Position numbers and translations under genes: made by a program | Origin: Paenibacillus castaneae | Lineage (GTDB): Bacteria; Bacillota; Bacilli; Paenibacillales; Paenibacillaceae | Length of the DNA stretch: 64,000 nt | NCBI RefSeq assembly: GCF_002884445.1 | Contig: NZ_KZ614144.1 | Span: forward strand, 4,570,094 to 4,634,093 | Direction of reading: 5' to 3' | Notes under the pieces: generated by a model | What the model saw: the letters and a program-made list of their open reading frames with translations, nothing else | Told to the model about the DNA's origin: nothing | Databases searched by the model: none | Part shown: piece by piece, positions 16,509 through 25,440 of the stretch | Position numbering within the stretch: the first letter of the stretch is position 1 | Layout of the letters: the number at the start of each line of letters is the position of its first letter

Positions 16509-17078
16509 TCATTTCCACACTCTATCTATGCTTTGTAATTGATTATTCATAAAGGCCATCTTATAAATATCAGGTTTTGAAGTGCTATCCCAGAATTCGT
16601 ATCCCATACGATTATCGTAATAGTTCATGATGATCGTCATTATATTTCCATGTGTTCCTATGACTACATTTTTGCCTCGGTAATCCTCCAGCAGCTTGTC
16701 TATAATCGGTATGGCCCTGTTCTGGGCTTCCCTCGTAGATTCACCGCCCGCAAGAGCATAATCCAGATCTTCAAACGATCGTTTAATTGCTGCTAGCAGC
16801 TCTTCCCATGGCGCCTTATAATCTAAGCCCTTAATAGCCCTTTCTCTTAAATTCTCATACTCTATGATGTCTATATTTTTACTCTCGGATAAATATTGGA
16901 TGGTTTGCACTGCTCTAGCATAAGTACTGGAAGCCATGTAATGTACTTCTATGTCATCCAGCAATACCGCGACCTTTCTAGCTTCTGCAACACCTTCAGG
17001 GGTAAGTCCTCTGCTTCTTTCATTGCCAAATACAAATTCCGATTCAGCATGTCTCACCATATAAATATGTGTAAGCAT
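16509..17078 (-). CDS. Histidine phosphatase family protein (phosphoglycerate-mutase-like)
   Basis: A 189-residue branch 1 histidine phosphatase. The phosphoacceptor motif is YMVRHAESE (an RHA variant of RHG), the first helix holds GLTPEGVAEARKVA, the proton donor region ENLRERAIKG, and the second His lies in NVVIGTHGNIMTIIM. The family includes phosphoglycerate mutases and many small-metabolite or protein phosphatases; at this length a non-glycolytic phosphatase is more likely. The ATG is preceded by AAGGAGGAC. The gene stands alone between GH95 and a divergent two-component system, and I cannot assign a substrate. Confidence 0.88.
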   Translation of the reverse strand: MLTHIYMVRHAESEFVFGNERSRGLTPEGVAEARKVAVLLDDIEVHYMASSTYARAVQTIQYLSESKNIDIIEYENLRERAIKGLDYKAPWEELLAAIKRSFEDLDYALAGGESTREAQNRAIPIIDKLLEDYRGKNVVIGTHGNIMTIIMNYYDNRMGYEFWDSTSKPDIYKMAFMNNQLQSIDRVWK

Positions 17079-17228
17079 AAAGTCCTCCTTAAAAATGGAA
17101 TGGAATTGTTATTATTAAGCATACATAAGTCTTGGCTGAAAGTTTACTGAAATTCCATGCTGCTGCGTGCATCTTGTGCAGAAAAAGCTGATAATAGAGA
17201 AGAACTCATGCTACAGGAGGAATAGATT

Positions 17229-17915
17229 ATGGCATCTTTTAACGGGATTAAAATATTGCTGGTAGATGACGAGCCAAATATTGTACAGTTTTTGGAGCTT
17301 GGACTCATCAATGAAGGATTTGAAATACGAGTCGCGTATGATGGAGAAACCGCTCTTCAGGAAGCAGCTGCTTTCCAGCCCCATGTTGTTATATTGGACA
17401 TTATGATGCCCGGCATGAATGGCTTTGAAGTATGTCACGCGCTGCGTGCCACGGGAGACAACATTGCAGTTATTATGCTGACAGCCAAGGATGAAGTGGA
17501 CGATCGCGTGAAGGGGCTGACGCTCGGCGCTGACGATTACCTCGTTAAGCCGTTCAGCTTCAGCGAGCTTCTAGCACGCATCGGAGCCAGGCTGCGCAAT
17601 CAATTTCCATATTTGCTTGGAGAGGTTACCTATGGCCCGTTTCGCCTCGATGATCGCCGTAAGGAGCTTATTTACAAAGAAGAAATACTTGAATTATCCC
17701 CTACCGAATACGAGCTTCTACGCTTCATTATTATGAACAATGGTGTTGTTTTGAGCAAATCGCTTATTTTGGACAAGGTATGGGGCTATCAGTTCGGCGG
17801 CGAAGAGAACATTGTCGAGGTGTACATCCGCTCCCTCCGCGATAAATTAAATGATAAGGAGCATCGGTTGATTCGGACGCTTCGAGGTGCAGGCTATCGG
17901 ATGGACTTATTATGA
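17229..17915 (+). CDS. OmpR-family response regulator
   Basis: A 228-residue regulator. The receiver has VDDE at residues 12-15, phosphoacceptor D57 (VILDIMMPG), the switch Thr in IMLTAKDEV and K107 followed by Pro (YLVKPF), all canonical. The winged-helix domain holds LELSPTEYELLRFIIMN and ends IRTLRGAGYRMDLL, the GAGY wing of the MprA/PrrA-like group. The ribosome binding site is ACAGGAGG. The stop overlaps the kinase start (ATGA), so the pair is an operon. Its targets are unknown. Confidence 0.93.
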   Translation: MASFNGIKILLVDDEPNIVQFLELGLINEGFEIRVAYDGETALQEAAAFQPHVVILDIMMPGMNGFEVCHALRATGDNIAVIMLTAKDEVDDRVKGLTLGADDYLVKPFSFSELLARIGARLRNQFPYLLGEVTYGPFRLDDRRKELIYKEEILELSPTEYELLRFIIMNNGVVLSKSLILDKVWGYQFGGEENIVEVYIRSLRDKLNDKEHRLIRTLRGAGYRMDLL

Positions 17916-19453
17916 GCAAGCTGCAGTCTAACCGTTTGATTCGCCTCTTCTCGCCTCGTTCCCTTCGCTACCAGCTGTTAAGCCGATCCCTGCTCATCCT
18001 AGCCGTTTTATTTCTCCTAATCGGCGTTCTTCAATATGTATTAATGAAGGATTTTATTTATAAGAATAAAGCTGAAGCACTAAGTACGCAAATTATGGCG
18101 ATGCCGATTGATTGGTTCATCAACTCAAACAACAGCCATACTCCCGATAATCGGCATTCGCCTAATAATGATGAACATCCTTCAACAGATAATAATCCGC
18201 AAAGAGATCGTCCCGATCTGCCGATTTTGTATCAGCCGGGCCTTTCATTTGTTTTTGTTGATTTGAACGGCATGATTACCGATTTATCCAAAAATAGCGG
18301 GACAAGCGCGCCATTGCTATCAACCGAGCAATATGATCTTATTAAGCAGGACCTGCTGGATCGCAAACCCTTAAATTACAAGGTTGTTAGAAATGCCGAA
18401 GGTACGGAGCAGCTTGTCGTTTATCGGCTTGCCGGACCGCCAGGCAAAGCTGAAGGCATTATTCAGGTCAGCACCGAGACCGACTCCCTGCGGCAGCTCC
18501 TGTTAACCCAGCTTGCGATATTTACTGTACTTGCCATCCTCGCACTCGCAGCTGGACTAGCTCTTTATTTGCCGCTGCTTCGTCGAACGCTTCAGCCTTT
18601 GTTCAGGGTTGTGCAGGCGACTCAAGAAACGCATGCAGGCAATCTTACAGAACGATTGCCGATTGACCAAGGCCAAGAAGAAATCGACCGCTTGTCCGAG
18701 GCATTCAATGGCATGCTGCAGCGGCTCGATACCGCATTCGAGGAAGAGCGGAAATTGACCGAGCGGATGCGTAGATTTGTTGCTGATGCTTCGCATGAGC
18801 TTAGAACGCCTATGACATCGATTCATGGCTTTCTTGAAGTGCTCCTGCGCGGTGCCGCAACGAATCCCGAGCAGCTGAAGCGCGCTCTTATGAGCATACA
18901 GCTTGAATCAGGGCGCATGAATAAGCTGGTAGAAGATCTTCTCGCGTTGGCCAAGCTGGATCAAGATCAGCAGCTGCTGCTCACGGAGACTCAGCTCGAT
19001 AAGCTGCTGCTGGAAATGGAACCTCAGCTCGCTATTCTCGCCGGCAATCGCAACGTTCAAATTGTCATTGCTCAAAGAGTGAGCGGCTTCTACCATTCAG
19101 ATAAGCTCAAGCAAGTCATATTGAACATATTTCTTAACGCGGTGCAGCATACCGATTCCGACGCTGGCATGATTGCATTAACACTAAGCCATGAAGACAA
19201 CAATGCCAAACTAATTATCGAAGACAATGGAGTCGGCATTCAGGAAGAGCATCTTCCTCATTTGTTCGAGCGGTTCTATCGCAGTGAATCGTCACGAACC
19301 CGCAAAAACGGCGGCGCCGGCTTAGGCCTCGCCATTTCCAAATCCATTATCGATGCGCATGGAGGGACGATCGAGGTTGTCAGTCATCCCGGCGAAGGAA
19401 CGGCCTTTCGAATCTTGCTTCCATTAGGTCGATCTCCATTGGAACGGGAATGA
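17912..19453 (+). CDS. Sensor histidine kinase
   Basis: A 513-residue membrane kinase. TM1 lies at about residues 25-45 and TM2 at about 200-222. The extracytoplasmic domain between them contains an Asn/His/Pro/Asp-rich low-complexity stretch at residues 71-100 that could bind metal or be disordered. HAMP follows TM2 (about 222-275). The H-box is FVADASHELRTPMTSIHGF with H295, the N-box NIFLNAVQHTD, G1 EDNGVGI, F-box LFERFYR and G2 GGAGLGLAISK. It pairs with the response regulator that overlaps its start by 4 nt. Confidence 0.93.
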   Translation: MSKLQSNRLIRLFSPRSLRYQLLSRSLLILAVLFLLIGVLQYVLMKDFIYKNKAEALSTQIMAMPIDWFINSNNSHTPDNRHSPNNDEHPSTDNNPQRDRPDLPILYQPGLSFVFVDLNGMITDLSKNSGTSAPLLSTEQYDLIKQDLLDRKPLNYKVVRNAEGTEQLVVYRLAGPPGKAEGIIQVSTETDSLRQLLLTQLAIFTVLAILALAAGLALYLPLLRRTLQPLFRVVQATQETHAGNLTERLPIDQGQEEIDRLSEAFNGMLQRLDTAFEEERKLTERMRRFVADASHELRTPMTSIHGFLEVLLRGAATNPEQLKRALMSIQLESGRMNKLVEDLLALAKLDQDQQLLLTETQLDKLLLEMEPQLAILAGNRNVQIVIAQRVSGFYHSDKLKQVILNIFLNAVQHTDSDAGMIALTLSHEDNNAKLIIEDNGVGIQEEHLPHLFERFYRSESSRTRKNGGAGLGLAISKSIIDAHGGTIEVVSHPGEGTAFRILLPLGRSPLERE

Positions 19454-20698: not shown

Positions 20699-21937
20699 TT
20701 ATATTGTTTCATGCTTCAGCATGAATTCATCCAGCTTGTTGCCATCCACATCATATGCCTGAAAGGTCAGCGTATCTCCGTTTATTCGAATACCCGCAAA
20801 CATCTGCTTATCATTTTGGAAATGAACCTTATGATAGAACTGGTCGTCCTTCTTCTCGTTAAATTTCTGTCCGGCTGCATTCGTTACAACGTATACCGTT
20901 CCTTCAAGGTTGAACACCGTATCCTCGCCGTTTCCAACAATTTCGCCGCCACGAAGCGGATAGGATCTTGAGTATTCATGATTATGTCCTTGAAGCACCA
21001 AATCAACGCCGAATTCGTCGAACAGCTCCGTCCAGCCCTTCACCTTCTTATAGGTATTGCCTCCATACGGACCTTGATGAACTGCAACGATTGTCCAAGG
21101 CTTATCCGTGCTCTCAAGGTCTTGCTTCAGCCATTTCGTCTGCTCCTTAATATTCGATTCCGAGTTCAGCATCGTGAAATGAACGGATCCGTAATCATAG
21201 GAATAGGTCGTTCCCGCAATAGAGCCATCGGCTCCGTTATCCGGCACATTGAAATGTGAGATGAAGGGCTCCGCTCCGCCGTCCACTTCATCATGATTGC
21301 CGGTGACCGGCATGAGCGGCACCTGCATTACCCATTTCTTAGCTTTGGCGAATAAATAAGTCCACCCCTGCTCATCCTTCGGATTCTCGGTAAAATCACC
21401 ATTATGAACGATGAATGCCGCTTCTGGAAAGATTGCGAATGCTTTATTTAATGTTGCACCCCACAGCTCGAAATCCTGCTCCGTTACTCCTTGCGAATCC
21501 GCAACATTAATGAAGGTGAAATCATTTTGGTCTATCGAAGCAGTCTGAAATACAGCCGCATCACTCCAACTCTTATCCTCTCCGCTTCCTACCCGGTATG
21601 TATAAGCAGTACCTGGCTTCAGCCCCGTTGCTTCTACCTTATGAACAAATCGTTTTGTTCCATTCGCAGTTGTTGTCGTACCAGTAAACGTTATTACCTT
21701 ATCTGTATTCCAGCTATCCGCCGTTTTTCCTTCCATTAGCTGAATGATTGCTTCATCCTGTGCATGGTTGCTATACCAAGTAAATGCGCGGCTCCTCTGC
21801 GGATCGCCTTTGAATGTCGTCACGATCGCATAGGGCTTTATCGATTTCTCTGCTTTGAACCATTCCAGGCCTATTAAGCCAAGAACCAGTACGAAGCAGC
21901 AAGCTGCCAGTGCCATGACGTCTTTCCGTTTCCTCAA
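20699..21937 (-). CDS. Exported metallophosphoesterase, purple-acid-phosphatase-like
   Basis: A 412-residue protein. It starts at TTG 21937, 7 nt after GGAGG. An N-terminal membrane or signal helix (VMALAACCFVLVLGLIGLEWF) is followed by a fibronectin-III-like domain (residues about 35-130, ending TGLKPGTAYTYRVGSGEDKSWS) as in purple acid phosphatases. The calcineurin-type metal site then appears as NVADSQG (variant of DxH), HNGDFTE, VTGNHDEVD, VAVHQGPYG and LQGHNHEYSRS. It should hydrolyse phosphomonoesters or phosphodiesters outside the cell. It is divergent, with a 168-nt gap, from the VTC-DUF4956-CotH operon. Confidence 0.9.
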   Translation of the reverse strand: MRKRKDVMALAACCFVLVLGLIGLEWFKAEKSIKPYAIVTTFKGDPQRSRAFTWYSNHAQDEAIIQLMEGKTADSWNTDKVITFTGTTTTANGTKRFVHKVEATGLKPGTAYTYRVGSGEDKSWSDAAVFQTASIDQNDFTFINVADSQGVTEQDFELWGATLNKAFAIFPEAAFIVHNGDFTENPKDEQGWTYLFAKAKKWVMQVPLMPVTGNHDEVDGGAEPFISHFNVPDNGADGSIAGTTYSYDYGSVHFTMLNSESNIKEQTKWLKQDLESTDKPWTIVAVHQGPYGGNTYKKVKGWTELFDEFGVDLVLQGHNHEYSRSYPLRGGEIVGNGEDTVFNLEGTVYVVTNAAGQKFNEKKDDQFYHKVHFQNDKQMFAGIRINGDTLTFQAYDVDGNKLDEFMLKHETI

Positions 21938-22105
21938 CCTAACGCCTCCTTAATAGCCTTCAATCTTTATTCTATTCTATCAATAAATCCACGATCAGCG
22001 CATTCAGCAATCTTTCAGCCGACCTTAAGTTAAGAATAAGTAAAGACAAGTACAATTGCATTTGTAAGAGAGATGAACGGCGCTGAACTAGAAAAGAGGT
22101 GTGAA

Positions 22106-22819
22106 ATGAATACAAATCTCAACTATCGCAATGAACTTAAATTTTTTATTAATCATCATCAGTATTTCATTATTCGTCAAAGGCTGAAAGACCTCATGCA
22201 GCCAGACAAGCATGTTGGACCATCAGGCGAATACCATATACGCAGCCTGTACTTTGATGATATTAACAACAAAGCCCTGCATGAGAAGCAAGGCGGAATA
22301 AGAGATCGCTCCAAATACCGCATACGTATTTATAACGGAAACGATAATATCATTCATTTTGAGAAAAAAATCAAATTCAAAGACTACATTGCTAAAGTGA
22401 AGGAGCCGCTTACGAGAGCTATGTATGATCAGCTTATCGCCGGCCAATTTGATGTATTAAAAGAAGGCAACAAGCCTCTGCTTAACGAGATTCATAATGA
22501 GATGAAGCATAATCTCTTAAGGCCCAAAGTAATTGTTGATTACGTTCGCGAGCCTTATGTGTACGATAACGGCAACGTTCGAATAACCTTTGACAAAAAT
22601 CTCCGAACCGGTCTGCATGCTATCGATATTTTCGATCAAACCTTAGACCCTATTCAAGCCATTGACAATGAAATGATTATTCTTGAAGTGAAATTTGATG
22701 GATATATTCCTGCTTTTATCAAAATCGCTTTGCAGCTTGAAGGACTGAACCGACAGTCAGCTTCAAAATACGTCATTTGCCGTAAATTTCTGAAATACAA
22801 CACTTGGGAGGATCAGTAA
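22106..22819 (+). CDS. Polyphosphate polymerase (VTC) domain protein
   Basis: A 237-residue cytoplasmic protein of the bacterial VTC-domain family, part of the triphosphate tunnel fold. Charged strands expected to line the tunnel are visible: YRNELKFFI, YHIRSLYFDD, SKYRIRIY, IHFEKKIKFKDYIAKVKEPL, LRPKVIVDYVREPYV, VRITFDKNLRTG and MIILEVKFDGYIP. In yeast, the VTC4 domain makes polyphosphate from ATP; activity of the bacterial versions is mostly inferred. ATG 22106 has AGAGGTG upstream, better than the ATG at 22073. It starts a three-gene operon: 1 nt separates it from the DUF4956 gene. Confidence 0.88.
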   Translation: MNTNLNYRNELKFFINHHQYFIIRQRLKDLMQPDKHVGPSGEYHIRSLYFDDINNKALHEKQGGIRDRSKYRIRIYNGNDNIIHFEKKIKFKDYIAKVKEPLTRAMYDQLIAGQFDVLKEGNKPLLNEIHNEMKHNLLRPKVIVDYVREPYVYDNGNVRITFDKNLRTGLHAIDIFDQTLDPIQAIDNEMIILEVKFDGYIPAFIKIALQLEGLNRQSASKYVICRKFLKYNTWEDQ

Positions 22820-22820
22820 A

Positions 22821-23543
22821 ATGGAAACCACGACGACAACAGCTATTGCTGCCGAAACAACAAACAAAACAAGCTTTGCCAACCTATTTAAAAGCTCGGT
22901 GGTTGATAACTTCACTTCAGATATTAGCCTTTCCAAAATATTAATTACACTTGCTGTCGCATTTGTGCTAGGATTTTTCATTTACTTGCTTTACAAAAGA
23001 ATATTTAGCGGAGTGCTTTATTCCAAGAGCTTTAACGTCTCCTTAATCGGCATGACGATGATTACAGCTACCGTAATTATTGCAATCAACTCTAACCTCG
23101 TTCTATCGCTCGGTATGGTGGGCGCGCTGTCTATTGTTCGTTTTAGAACGCCTATCAAAGATCCAACTGATCTTATTTTCCTATTCTGGGCAGCAGTTGC
23201 TGGTATCGTTACAGGAGCAGGCTTCTACACGCTTGCGGTTATCGGTTCAATCGTAATCGGCCTCATCCTATTCTTCTTCGTTAAAGGCGGTTCCGTTGAA
23301 ACCCCTTATCTGCTTGTCGTCAACTGTGATACGGATGCTACGGAGCAGCTTGTTCATAGACAAGTCGGCACACTAGTCAAACGTTATAACGTGAAGCAAA
23401 AAACCGTTACTAAAGGCAATATTGAAATGACGCTTGAGGTACGTCTTTGTGATGAGACTGGCCGTTTCGTTAATCAATTGACGGACATGGCAGGCGTGCG
23501 CAATGCTGTGCTTATAAGCTATAGCGGCGACTATGTATCCTAA
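22821..23543 (+). CDS. DUF4956 integral membrane protein
   Basis: A 240-residue protein. A polar Thr-rich N-terminus (about 40 residues) is followed by four hydrophobic helices: LITLAVAFVLGFFIYLLY, SLIGMTMITATVIIAI, LIFLFWAAVAGIVTGAGFY and LAVIGSIVIGLILFFF. Between the second and third lies the conserved cytoplasmic-type motif GALSIVRFRTPIKDPTDL typical of DUF4956. The C-terminal 75 residues are a small soluble alpha-beta domain. It is tightly coupled to the VTC gene (1-nt gap) and 18 nt upstream of the CotH gene. This co-occurrence suggests a membrane channel or scaffold for a VTC product, which is inference. Confidence 0.88.
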   Translation: METTTTTAIAAETTNKTSFANLFKSSVVDNFTSDISLSKILITLAVAFVLGFFIYLLYKRIFSGVLYSKSFNVSLIGMTMITATVIIAINSNLVLSLGMVGALSIVRFRTPIKDPTDLIFLFWAAVAGIVTGAGFYTLAVIGSIVIGLILFFFVKGGSVETPYLLVVNCDTDATEQLVHRQVGTLVKRYNVKQKTVTKGNIEMTLEVRLCDETGRFVNQLTDMAGVRNAVLISYSGDYVS

Positions 23544-23561
23544 TAATCAGGAGGTGTTCAA

Positions 23562-25382
23562 ATGAAGGCGAAAGCTAATGCTTGGTTTATATGCTTTTGC
23601 TCCATTCTCCTGATCATTGGACTCTCGGGATGTGCAGCAGGCAGCGCATCCTCAGATCCCGGGACGTCAGTAACCGAGAAATCAGCGGATGAGCAAAAGC
23701 TCGATGAGATCTATTTTCCGAAGGACAAGATTGTAGATGTTAAAATTACGATTGATCCAGATGATTTTCAGGATATGATGGACAATGCGAGCGCGGAAGA
23801 GTACAAAACAGCTTCGGTGGAATATAACGGACAAAAATTTGATAACGTTGCTATTCGGACAAAAGGCAATCTAAGCTTGAGCAGCGTTGTTAATATGGCC
23901 GACTCCGACCGGTACAGCTTAAAAATTTCTTTCGATGAATATGTGAATCAGACGATGCAGGGCATAAGCAAAGTCAATTTAAACAATAATTTCAGTGATG
24001 CCTCGTATATGAGAGAGTTCCTCTCCTACGAGCTGGCGGAGCAAATGGGGCTCCCTACACCTAAGTTTTCATATGTGAACGTCTATGTGAATAACGAGCT
24101 TTGGGGCTTTTACTTAGCGATAGAGCAAATTGGGGATGCTTATCTCAAGCGTAATTTCGGCAATTCCTACGGCGCTCTCTATAAAGCAAATGGCGGTACA
24201 GGCAGTGAGCTTAACTGGCTTGGGAACATGAAATCGTATACGGGACTTGATTTGAAATCGGATAAGTCCAATAATGACATTCTGCTCGATATACTGGATG
24301 AGCTGAATAACGGCAGTGACTATGAGAGCGTTCTCGATGTCGAGGAAGTATTGAAATTTATTGCGTTGAACGCAGTAGCCGGCAACTTTGACAGCTACTT
24401 ATCCGAGAAAAAGCATAACTATTATTTGTATGAGGACGAGGGCAAATTCAATATTTTGCCGTGGGACTACAATATGTCATTCGGTGTATTTGGCGGGACT
24501 GGCGTTCTTATTGACGAGCCTACAACAGTCACTTTGACAGACCGTCCTCTCATCGATAAGTTGCTTAAAGTAGATGCATACAAGGAAAAATATCATGAGA
24601 TTATTAAAGAAATGATAGAGGGCTATTTAGCCGAAGATACTTTCCAGGCAAGAACGGAAGAGATTAAAAATATGATTTCATCTTATGTTAAAGCGGACCC
24701 TTCCGCGTTCTACACCTATGAGCAATTTGAGCAAGGTGTAACGCAGGTTGTTTCGTTTAACAAAACACAAACAAGCTCTATTAAGCAGCAGCTTGACGGC
24801 ACGATCGCTTCTTCCGGTGATGGTTCCGGCTCAGCAAGCGGCGGTATGGGCGGTGGATTTGGCGGCGGAGGCGGCCGCGGTATGGGCGGCGGAAATCGCA
24901 GCATGGGCAACACTCCACAGAATACGCAGAAAGGTGCCGGCCAAGCTGGAGGAGCAGACACTACTGCTGCATCCTTTCAAAGCAGCAGCAAATCAGCCAT
25001 GACGACCAACATTCAAACGGCTGAAATGGAAACCGGAGCATCTGCAGTAATCCGCCAAGTCGCAGAAGGCGACACTGGCACTGCGGCTCCTAACGGGCAG
25101 GGTGCTCCCGGCGAAATGGTACCTCCTGATGGAAATGCTCTCCCAGAGGGCATGGTGCCGCCGGACGGCCAAATGCCTGACGGCATGCAGGGCGGTTTCG
25201 GGGGCGGCAGACCGAACATGCAGGGCGGCATGGGCGGTGGTGGCATGGGCGGCTTCCCAGGAGGACAAACCGCCGCTCAGCCTCAGGGCAGCGCCAAAGA
25301 GGCGGCTACTGCCGGAATCGCAATTATTGTTCTGCTGCTTTCCTGTGCTTTCGTCGTATTTTACAAGCGTAAACGAATATAA
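23562..25382 (+). CDS. CotH-kinase family lipoprotein
   Basis: A 606-residue protein with a lipobox (IGLSGCAAG, Cys near residue 24), so it is anchored outside the membrane. The CotH domain spans about residues 45-410 and includes VAIRTKGNLSLSS, YLAIEQIGDAYLKRNFG, NAVAGNFDSYLSEKKHNYYLY and ILPWDYNMSFG, the last two holding the Asp/Asn residues of the atypical kinase site. CotH of B. subtilis is a protein kinase of spore coat proteins. Residues about 420-580 are low complexity, rich in Gly and Met (GGMGGGFGGGGGRGMGGG). A C-terminal hydrophobic helix and KRKRI form a second anchor. It ends the VTC-DUF4956-CotH operon and is followed by a terminator. Confidence 0.9.
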   Translation: MKAKANAWFICFCSILLIIGLSGCAAGSASSDPGTSVTEKSADEQKLDEIYFPKDKIVDVKITIDPDDFQDMMDNASAEEYKTASVEYNGQKFDNVAIRTKGNLSLSSVVNMADSDRYSLKISFDEYVNQTMQGISKVNLNNNFSDASYMREFLSYELAEQMGLPTPKFSYVNVYVNNELWGFYLAIEQIGDAYLKRNFGNSYGALYKANGGTGSELNWLGNMKSYTGLDLKSDKSNNDILLDILDELNNGSDYESVLDVEEVLKFIALNAVAGNFDSYLSEKKHNYYLYEDEGKFNILPWDYNMSFGVFGGTGVLIDEPTTVTLTDRPLIDKLLKVDAYKEKYHEIIKEMIEGYLAEDTFQARTEEIKNMISSYVKADPSAFYTYEQFEQGVTQVVSFNKTQTSSIKQQLDGTIASSGDGSGSASGGMGGGFGGGGGRGMGGGNRSMGNTPQNTQKGAGQAGGADTTAASFQSSSKSAMTTNIQTAEMETGASAVIRQVAEGDTGTAAPNGQGAPGEMVPPDGNALPEGMVPPDGQMPDGMQGGFGGGRPNMQGGMGGGGMGGFPGGQTAAQPQGSAKEAATAGIAIIVLLLSCAFVVFYKRKRI

Positions 25383-25389
25383 CATAACC

Positions 25390-25440
25390 AAAAAGATCGC
25401 TCCATTCTGCAAAAATAGCAGGATGGATTGCGATCTTTTT
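25390..25440. terminator. Bidirectional terminator after the CotH-kinase gene
   Basis: AAAAAGATCGC...TGCGATCTTTTT forms a long imperfect stem (arms about 21 nt, loop AAAAATA). T-runs flank both sides, serving the plus-strand operon and the minus-strand gene ending at 25459. Confidence 0.85.

Follow-up and report, generated by a model that had tools for sequence, protein, structure and literature searches.

A conserved VTC–DUF4956 gene pair with exchangeable surface partners in Paenibacillus castaneae and its relatives: a candidate unit for polyphosphate synthesis and export

Three adjacent genes of Paenibacillus castaneae encode a protein of the VTC polyphosphate polymerase family, a DUF4956 membrane protein and a CotH kinase-like lipoprotein. 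They are located in a 64,000 nt stretch of DNA (assembly GCF_002884445.1, contig NZ_KZ614144.1, positions 4,570,094 to 4,634,093 of the forward strand), hereafter called the window, and had been singled out, together with a divergent gene for an exported phosphatase, in a description made from the letters and open reading frames (the sequence-only reading). We found that the VTC and DUF4956 genes are nearly inseparable in the sampled phylum and that the surface protein encoded beside them varies. As a whole, the data are best explained by polyphosphate synthesis that would be coupled to export and would serve a surface partner. The probability of this reading is about 0.45; this figure and the grades of confidence worded below for the steps of the mechanism are judgements and were not computed.

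Results

VTC and DUF4956 genes occur as a pair

We searched 249 genomes of the phylum Bacillota with one profile search per protein family. VTC was found in 35 genomes (42 copies), and DUF4956 in the identical 35 genomes, also in 42 copies, with no genome carrying one family alone. DUF4956 is encoded within 1 kb and on the same strand of 40 of the 42 VTC copies; of the two remaining, one is at a contig end (G178) and the other has a CotH gene between VTC and DUF4956 (G250). CotH was present in 33 genomes, 29 of which carry VTC, and within 5 kb of 26 of the 42 VTC copies. With relatedness ignored, Fisher tests of co-occurrence with VTC gave 1.7e-43 for DUF4956 and 9e-28 for CotH. These counts far exceed chance, as the sequence-only reading had expected. 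Of its three-gene cassette, VTC and DUF4956 are near-obligate companions in the phylum, and CotH is exchanged for other surface proteins. Among 14 named control genomes, VTC and DUF4956 were present in the same three.

The pairing was also evident in three sets of loci: 60 from the window's bacterial family, fetched by region from 126 VTC matches (mostly low-scoring and window-like), 38 from the phylum (of 40 fetched, 38 held a match), and the best 80 of 516 GTDB relatives by match to the query. VTC and DUF4956 are same-strand neighbors in 58/60, 35/38 and 78/80 of these loci, respectively. Adjacency is broken in L087, L088, L139, L147, L148, L172 and L174, of which L147 and L148 come from a single genome and lie at contig ends. 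A further gene separates VTC from DUF4956 in L139 and L172, and the others are considered in the Discussion. Among plasmid-collection records, where five of seven matches were examined, those of Nonomuraea, Pseudobutyrivibrio, Planococcus and Enterococcus contain VTC, DUF4956 and CotH together. The distance matrices of VTC and DUF4956 were correlated over 172 pairs (r 0.93, compared with at most 0.17 in 300 permutations), a value that shared history alone would also raise. We are therefore highly confident that VTC and DUF4956 act together in this phylum, in which the pair is widespread (35 of the 249 sampled genomes).

The VTC protein retains the key residues of yeast Vtc4

The window VTC matched PF09359 with 142.1 bits against a cut-off of 23, and its family profile matched yeast Vtc4 (3g3q) with an E value of 3e-18. 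Joint substitution of Vtc4 R264, R266 and E426 results in a catalytically impaired complex (PMC9911596). The equivalent residues of the window protein are R83, R85 and E205, which are invariant in 30/30 VTC sequences. Vtc4 K200, K281, K294, R361, R373, K428, S457 and K458 were compared as further active-site residues; the matching positions are invariant or nearly so in the same 30 sequences. The position aligned with Vtc4 K455 is non-basic. At the level of sequence, the assignment to the polyphosphate polymerase type is thus upheld, and the protein probably makes polyphosphate. It is not the sole candidate polyphosphate enzyme of the genome because a separate PP_kinase (PF02503) gene is present. 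The window VTC consists of 248 aa with PF09359 as its only domain and has no hydrophobic segment; therefore, export would need a membrane partner.

DUF4956 is a distant relative of MgtC

With PF16316, the window DUF4956 protein is close to the cut-off of 30.6 bits, scoring 29.2 bits in a single-protein scan and 31.2 bits when the genome was searched. Its nearest named relative, from Paenibacillus luteus, is 91% identical. When the DUF4956 and MgtC profiles were aligned by hhalign, the probability was 97.6 and the score 86.0 over 199 columns, which cover the membrane part and the C-terminal soluble domain. Controls scored 13.6 (VTC against MgtC), 18.1 (reversed profile) and at most 29.5 (60 block shuffles). 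The window protein itself reached 22.4 bits with the MgtC Pfam model, below the cut-off of 31.4, and the one PDB match of the DUF4956 profile (E 1.2) was taken as chance. By profile comparison, DUF4956 is a distant MgtC relative.

The sequence-only reading had described a four-helix protein with a conserved RFRTPIKDP loop. The helix number is approximate, as hydropathy indicates four to five segments. All 21 aligned sequences share the RFR of this loop, but the PIKDP part is variable. The positive-inside rule would place the RFR loop on the cytoplasmic side. Whether polyphosphate would be exported through DUF4956 is, in our judgement, evenly balanced.

The CotH lipoprotein is one of several surface partners

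The window CotH matched PF08757 with 232.5 bits and a solved CotH (5jd9) with an E value of 8e-18. It carries the lipobox LSGC at residues 21–24, and a hydrophobic segment at residues 577–604 agrees with the second, C-terminal anchor proposed earlier. D277 and D302 are kept in 96% and 95%, respectively, of 104 aligned cassette CotH domains (from 126 collected proteins). They correspond to D228 and D251 of Bacillus subtilis CotH, a correspondence based on an identical spacing of 23 residues in the solved chain; mutants of both residues have been described (PMC7821199). With both kinase aspartates kept, the sequence is that of a kinase-like protein. CotH has been assayed with ATP, and where the ATP for its phosphorylation reaction in the spore coat comes from has been called an unanswered question (PMC7821199). 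It is doubtful that CotH would use exported phosphate. A second CotH match, a 356-aa frame, is present elsewhere in the genome.

All six VTC genomes without CotH have a match to Cthe_2159, which was found in 25 of the 249 genomes, 20 of them with VTC. CotH or Cthe_2159 is present in 35/35 VTC genomes versus 9/214 others, counted as presence in the genome and not as adjacency, at E 0.001 (the curated cut-off was passed by 32/33 CotH and 23/25 Cthe_2159 genomes). Within 3.5 kb of 172 adjacent VTC–DUF4956 pairs, the partner is CotH in 110, Cthe_2159 in 27, PelG with CotH in 17 and CotH plus Cthe_2159 in one, and 17 pairs have none of these; L060 and L066, in which PelG is farther away than 3.5 kb, are counted under CotH. 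Pfam searches of Gly-tailed partners other than CotH identified Cthe_2159 in 7/7 tested and a lamin-tail domain in two others.

On a FastTree tree of VTC, which has many weak branches, the partner labels changed at least 12 times with 'none' set aside, far below shuffled labels; the well-supported branches alone force four changes for Cthe_2159 and two for PelG. On this tree, each label has more than one origin. Because of these repeated changes, the VTC–DUF4956 core appears to exchange its surface partners.

A Gly-rich stretch (40 aa with at least 35% Gly near the C-terminus) is present in 51/129 CotH partners, including that of the window, and in 18/32 other downstream proteins, one of which is a response regulator, compared with 5/1382 other proteins of at least 200 aa and none of the 39 predicted lipoproteins among them. 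Of the five Gly-rich controls, one is encoded between DUF4956 and VTC (L172) and two are divergent from adjoining regulator genes (L175 and L236); owing to these positions, they may be partners too. A C-terminal hydrophobic segment was found in 88/161 partners.

The linkage to exported proteins bears on whether the polymer leaves the cell. Polyphosphate might instead stay in the cytoplasm, with DUF4956 acting as a VTC anchor or an MgtC-like sensor or regulator and the surface partner being co-regulated with no contact to the polymer. The profile kinship with MgtC over both the membrane and soluble parts fits this alternative, and strict pairing is equally expected of an enzyme and its regulator. 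However, the linkage of the core to varied exported or membrane partners makes more sense if its product leaves the cell, and CotH, PelG with CotH, or Cthe_2159 lies within 3.5 kb of 155/172 pairs. We consider a purely cytoplasmic role unlikely.

One architecture is embedded in pel operons. PelG matches were found in 19 loci of relatives. The gene L073:10195-13305, in a pel operon with VTC and DUF4956 as its last genes, encodes a 1036-aa PelG–CotH fusion, and frames of 1033–1170 aa matching PelG and CotH adjoin VTC in ten further family loci. The occurrence of the families together elsewhere, which the sequence-only reading had mentioned, is already published for Pel loci: Gram-positive pelDEADAFG operons have cotH, polyphosphate polymerase and DUF4956 genes alongside as accessory genes (PMC7112168). 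The authors suggested that Pel synthesis is possibly regulated by CotH phosphorylation, and the accessible part of their paper proposes no function for DUF4956. In the window and its genome, PelG gave no match (the other Pel genes were not searched), and the window cassette is not contiguous with pelDEADAFG by this test.

These operons, with PelG fused to CotH, would suit a different reading, in which VTC is another type of phosphotransferase that loads a lipid, glycan or protein intermediate, DUF4956 flips or presents it, and CotH then modifies an exopolysaccharide or wall polymer. Glycosyltransferase genes adjoining the cassettes of Pseudobutyrivibrio and Planococcus point in the same direction. 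Such a role is nevertheless improbable in our view: the tunnel and metal residues of VTC match those of the polymerase Vtc4, and the PelG match is missing from the genome of the window.

The divergent phosphatase is linked in part of the family

The window phosphatase has an N-terminal hydrophobic segment at residues 5–29. Its orthologues were found in 28/118 family genomes, including that of the window, at scores of 288 bits and above, followed by a gap to 264. Of the 28, 24 are encoded beside the VTC cassette: 23 have VTC within 1 kb, and one follows CotH at a distance of 2.6 kb. Of the remaining four, two are on a different contig (G059 and G085), one is distant (G075) and one belongs to a genome that has no window-type VTC (G029). 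The phosphatase gene lies within three genes of 20/60 family, 0/38 phylum and 5/80 GTDB loci. Conservation beside the cassette, as proposed earlier, therefore holds for part of the family but not for the phylum loci, and the phosphatase is a linked but lineage-restricted component.

Membership in a Pho regulon was considered and rejected. We scored TTNACA arrays with an ad hoc test in 26 intergenic rows between the purple acid phosphatase (PAP) and VTC genes, one of which (L001) duplicates the window row, and most scores were unremarkable. Three rows (L160, L163 and L043) had scores reached by at most 1/100 shuffles, and the score of the window row was reached by 19/100.

If the unit served phosphate storage under starvation, with the exported phosphatase gathering phosphate, VTC storing it and CotH being incidental, the position of 24/28 phosphatase orthologues beside the cassette would be expected. 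CotH or Cthe_2159 linkage is, however, far wider than phosphatase linkage, and the Pho-box-like arrays are mostly unremarkable; this scenario seems very improbable.

A two-component system and tandem TTCAG repeats extend the unit

An OmpR-class response regulator and a sensor kinase with two membrane segments (hydrophobic at residues 20–49 and 193–224) are encoded upstream in the window, with the genes for an acyl-CoA dehydrogenase and the phosphatase standing between them and VTC. Close homologues of both directly adjoin the cassette in the same-genus loci L048 (431 bits for the regulator, 411 bits for the kinase), L052 and L059, and adjoin the phosphatase gene in L050 and L037; orthology was judged by score and place only. 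A regulator–kinase pair is located within three genes of the cassette in 10/60 family, 16/38 phylum and 35/80 GTDB loci. The unit is larger than first described, and the two-component system at 17229–19453 is very likely part of it.

Tandem TTCAG repeats precede VTC, a further part missing from the first description. A repeat scoring at least 13/15 was found upstream of VTC in 33/41 window-type loci (VTC at least 55% identical, window included) versus 1/313 control upstreams, which were taken from the same loci. The repeat was noticed in PAP–VTC intergenic rows and then scored on a set including them; 33/41 is thus not independent of the discovery, whereas the control value is. In its own genome, the site before VTC, from which the pattern was written, is the sole match with zero mismatches, but 17 matches with up to two mismatches, versus 11 for the reversed control, are unremarkable, and five matches at the three-mismatch level in the window were equalled in 12/100 shuffles. 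Across the genome, the pattern discriminates poorly. Upstream of the regulator gene, a comparable TTCAG pair is present in L048 and not in L052, L059, L050 or L037. The repeat would be a likely binding site for the regulator.

The second-best match in the genome (one mismatch) is upstream of the gene L270:538-1443, which encodes a 301-aa exported-looking protein and is a possible further target of the regulator.

Features of the locus

The features are listed in Table 1. Positions, strands and the gaps between the cassette genes (1 nt between VTC and DUF4956, 18 nt between DUF4956 and CotH) are all as first described, and the family assignments of VTC, CotH and the exported phosphatase are clear Pfam matches. 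The TTG start of the phosphatase gene is 7 nt downstream of AAGGAGG. For VTC, an in-frame ATG at 22106 with AGAGGTG upstream is a better start than 22073, and with it the distance of 168 nt to the phosphatase gene is obtained. The hairpin following CotH is succeeded by T residues, and none of 200 shuffles was equally stable; a simple consensus scan did not list it. No sigma-70-like site was found upstream of VTC, and searches for tRNAs and for Rfam families at gathering thresholds found none. A histidine phosphatase family gene (PF00300, window 16509–17078) is divergent from the response regulator gene, with a weak TTCAG pair in between.

Table 1. Features of the VTC–DUF4956–CotH region, in window coordinates
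Feature	Position	Strand	Remarks
Tandem-repeat copy, weaker (tentative)	17125..17151	-	3 mismatches; between histidine phosphatase and response regulator genes
OmpR-class response regulator	17229..17915	+	PF00072 + PF00486; probable regulator of the cassette
Sensor histidine kinase	17912..19453	+	PF00512, PF02518, PF00672; partner of the regulator
Purple-acid-phosphatase-like exported metallophosphoesterase	20699..21937	-	PF16656 + PF00149; divergent from VTC
Tandem direct repeat TTCAG-N6-TTCAG-N6-TTAAG, 11-bp period	22003..22029	+	Putative; likely response-regulator site
VTC-type polyphosphate polymerase (putative), soluble triphosphate tunnel (TTM) domain	22073..22819	+	PF09359, E 2.6e-41; likely start 22106
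DUF4956 membrane protein, distant MgtC relative, C-terminal soluble domain	22821..23543	+	PF16316; proposed polymer conduit
CotH kinase-like lipoprotein, Gly/Met/Pro-rich linker, C-terminal membrane anchor	23562..25382	+	PF08757, E 1.1e-68
Hairpin, probable terminator closing the cassette	25390..25440	+	-29.2 kcal/mol, z -8.5

Discussion

From these comparisons we infer a two-gene machine in which polyphosphate synthesis would be coupled to export. VTC would take phosphate from ATP and feed the growing chain into the MgtC-like DUF4956 protein, the invariant RFR loop of which probably lies where an oligomeric conduit opens to the cytoplasm. On the cell exterior, a tethered and exchangeable surface partner would use or bind the polymer. 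In the window, the exported high-energy phosphate might serve the CotH lipoprotein, either directly or after conversion, as a donor for the phosphorylation of a surface protein or glycan, and the divergent exported phosphatase might recover phosphate or remove the mark. The OmpR-class two-component system would switch the unit on via the tandem TTCAG repeats. A stronger version, in which DUF4956 is a new conduit class that parallels the VTC channel of eukaryotes with an MgtC fold, and the pair delivers high-energy phosphate to the cell exterior for CotH to use polyphosphate instead of ATP, is rather unlikely. If so, the pair would supply energy and phosphate for extracytoplasmic phosphorylation with exchangeable surface partners.

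Several points weigh against synthesis-coupled export. No MgtC relative is known to be a polymer channel, and some act as regulators. CotH was assayed with ATP (PMC7821199), and the 27 of 172 pairs that have Cthe_2159 and no CotH within 3.5 kb mean that CotH-type phosphorylation cannot be the general role. VTC occurs without DUF4956 in two of the 60 family loci, L087 (a 150-aa frame) and L088 (a 241-aa frame). Conversely, the Evansella locus L174 has DUF4956 and CotH with VTC absent from the locus, and around a DUF4956 gene on a Hymenobacter plasmid (L281:5974-6642), the ~6 kb to each side contain no VTC gene; DUF4956 can thus stand without an adjacent VTC. In the literature searched, we found no activity, transport or localization data for cassette members.

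DUF4956 may have another role in Bacteroidota. In the 12.6-kb Hymenobacter stretch L281, its gene is followed by a TolC-family gene.

If synthesis-coupled export is correct, the pair is a bacterial VTC-type polyphosphate machine with a different membrane subunit, and DUF4956 gains a testable role. It would also be relevant to the phosphate source of kinases that act outside the cytoplasm. Because the pair is widespread and occurs within pel operons of relatives, the answer bears on surface and biofilm chemistry. The combination of polymer synthesis, membrane passage and a kinase-like surface partner has hardly been studied; the titles and abstract openings of open-licence papers described no joint function for CotH with VTC or polyphosphate, or for Cthe_2159.

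Comparison with known systems

DUF4956 resembles MgtC/SapB proteins in profile over the membrane and C-terminal soluble parts, but MgtC/SapB invariants such as the GLTTAA stretch are missing from its alignment, in which RFR is invariant instead. The window CotH belongs to the same family as the spore-coat kinases of Bacillus and keeps the equivalents of D228 and D251, whereas it is an exported lipoprotein with a Gly-rich linker and a C-terminal anchor and is linked to VTC and DUF4956. The Pel accessory set unites the same three families in one cluster; in contrast, the window has the order VTC–DUF4956–CotH, and its CotH stands alone as a lipoprotein that carries a C-terminal anchor of its own.

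In Clostridium perfringens, the NELoc-2 locus contains VTC or polyphosphate polymerase genes and a CotH gene (PMC2879425, PMC11677781). The VTC genes are followed by genes annotated 'tubulin/FtsZ', CP4_0461 and CP4_0464, which encode membrane proteins of 226 and 222 aa (PMC2879425) and look like DUF4956 by size, order and predicted membrane place. Genes for a 685-aa protein, a HEAT-repeat protein and a glycosyltransferase come after the VTC and CotH genes of NELoc-2, in the same order as in Planococcus. The Planococcus stretch (L284:4292-10624) encodes VTC, DUF4956, CotH, a 689-aa protein, a HEAT-repeat protein and a glycosyltransferase, and L119 has frames of similar sizes downstream of CotH.

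A further parallel is the eukaryotic VTC complex (Vtc1/Vtc3/Vtc4), a polymerase and translocase with the same polymerase family and key residues. The channel of the yeast complex is lined by basic residues of the transmembrane segment TM1 (PMC9911596), and the window VTC probably also works with a membrane partner carrying basic residues. Unlike the eukaryotic subunits, the window polymerase has no SPX domain or fused helices, since PF09359 alone was found and no hydrophobic segment is present, and control by inositol pyrophosphates is not expected. Its partner is the MgtC-like DUF4956 protein and not a Vtc1-type membrane subunit.

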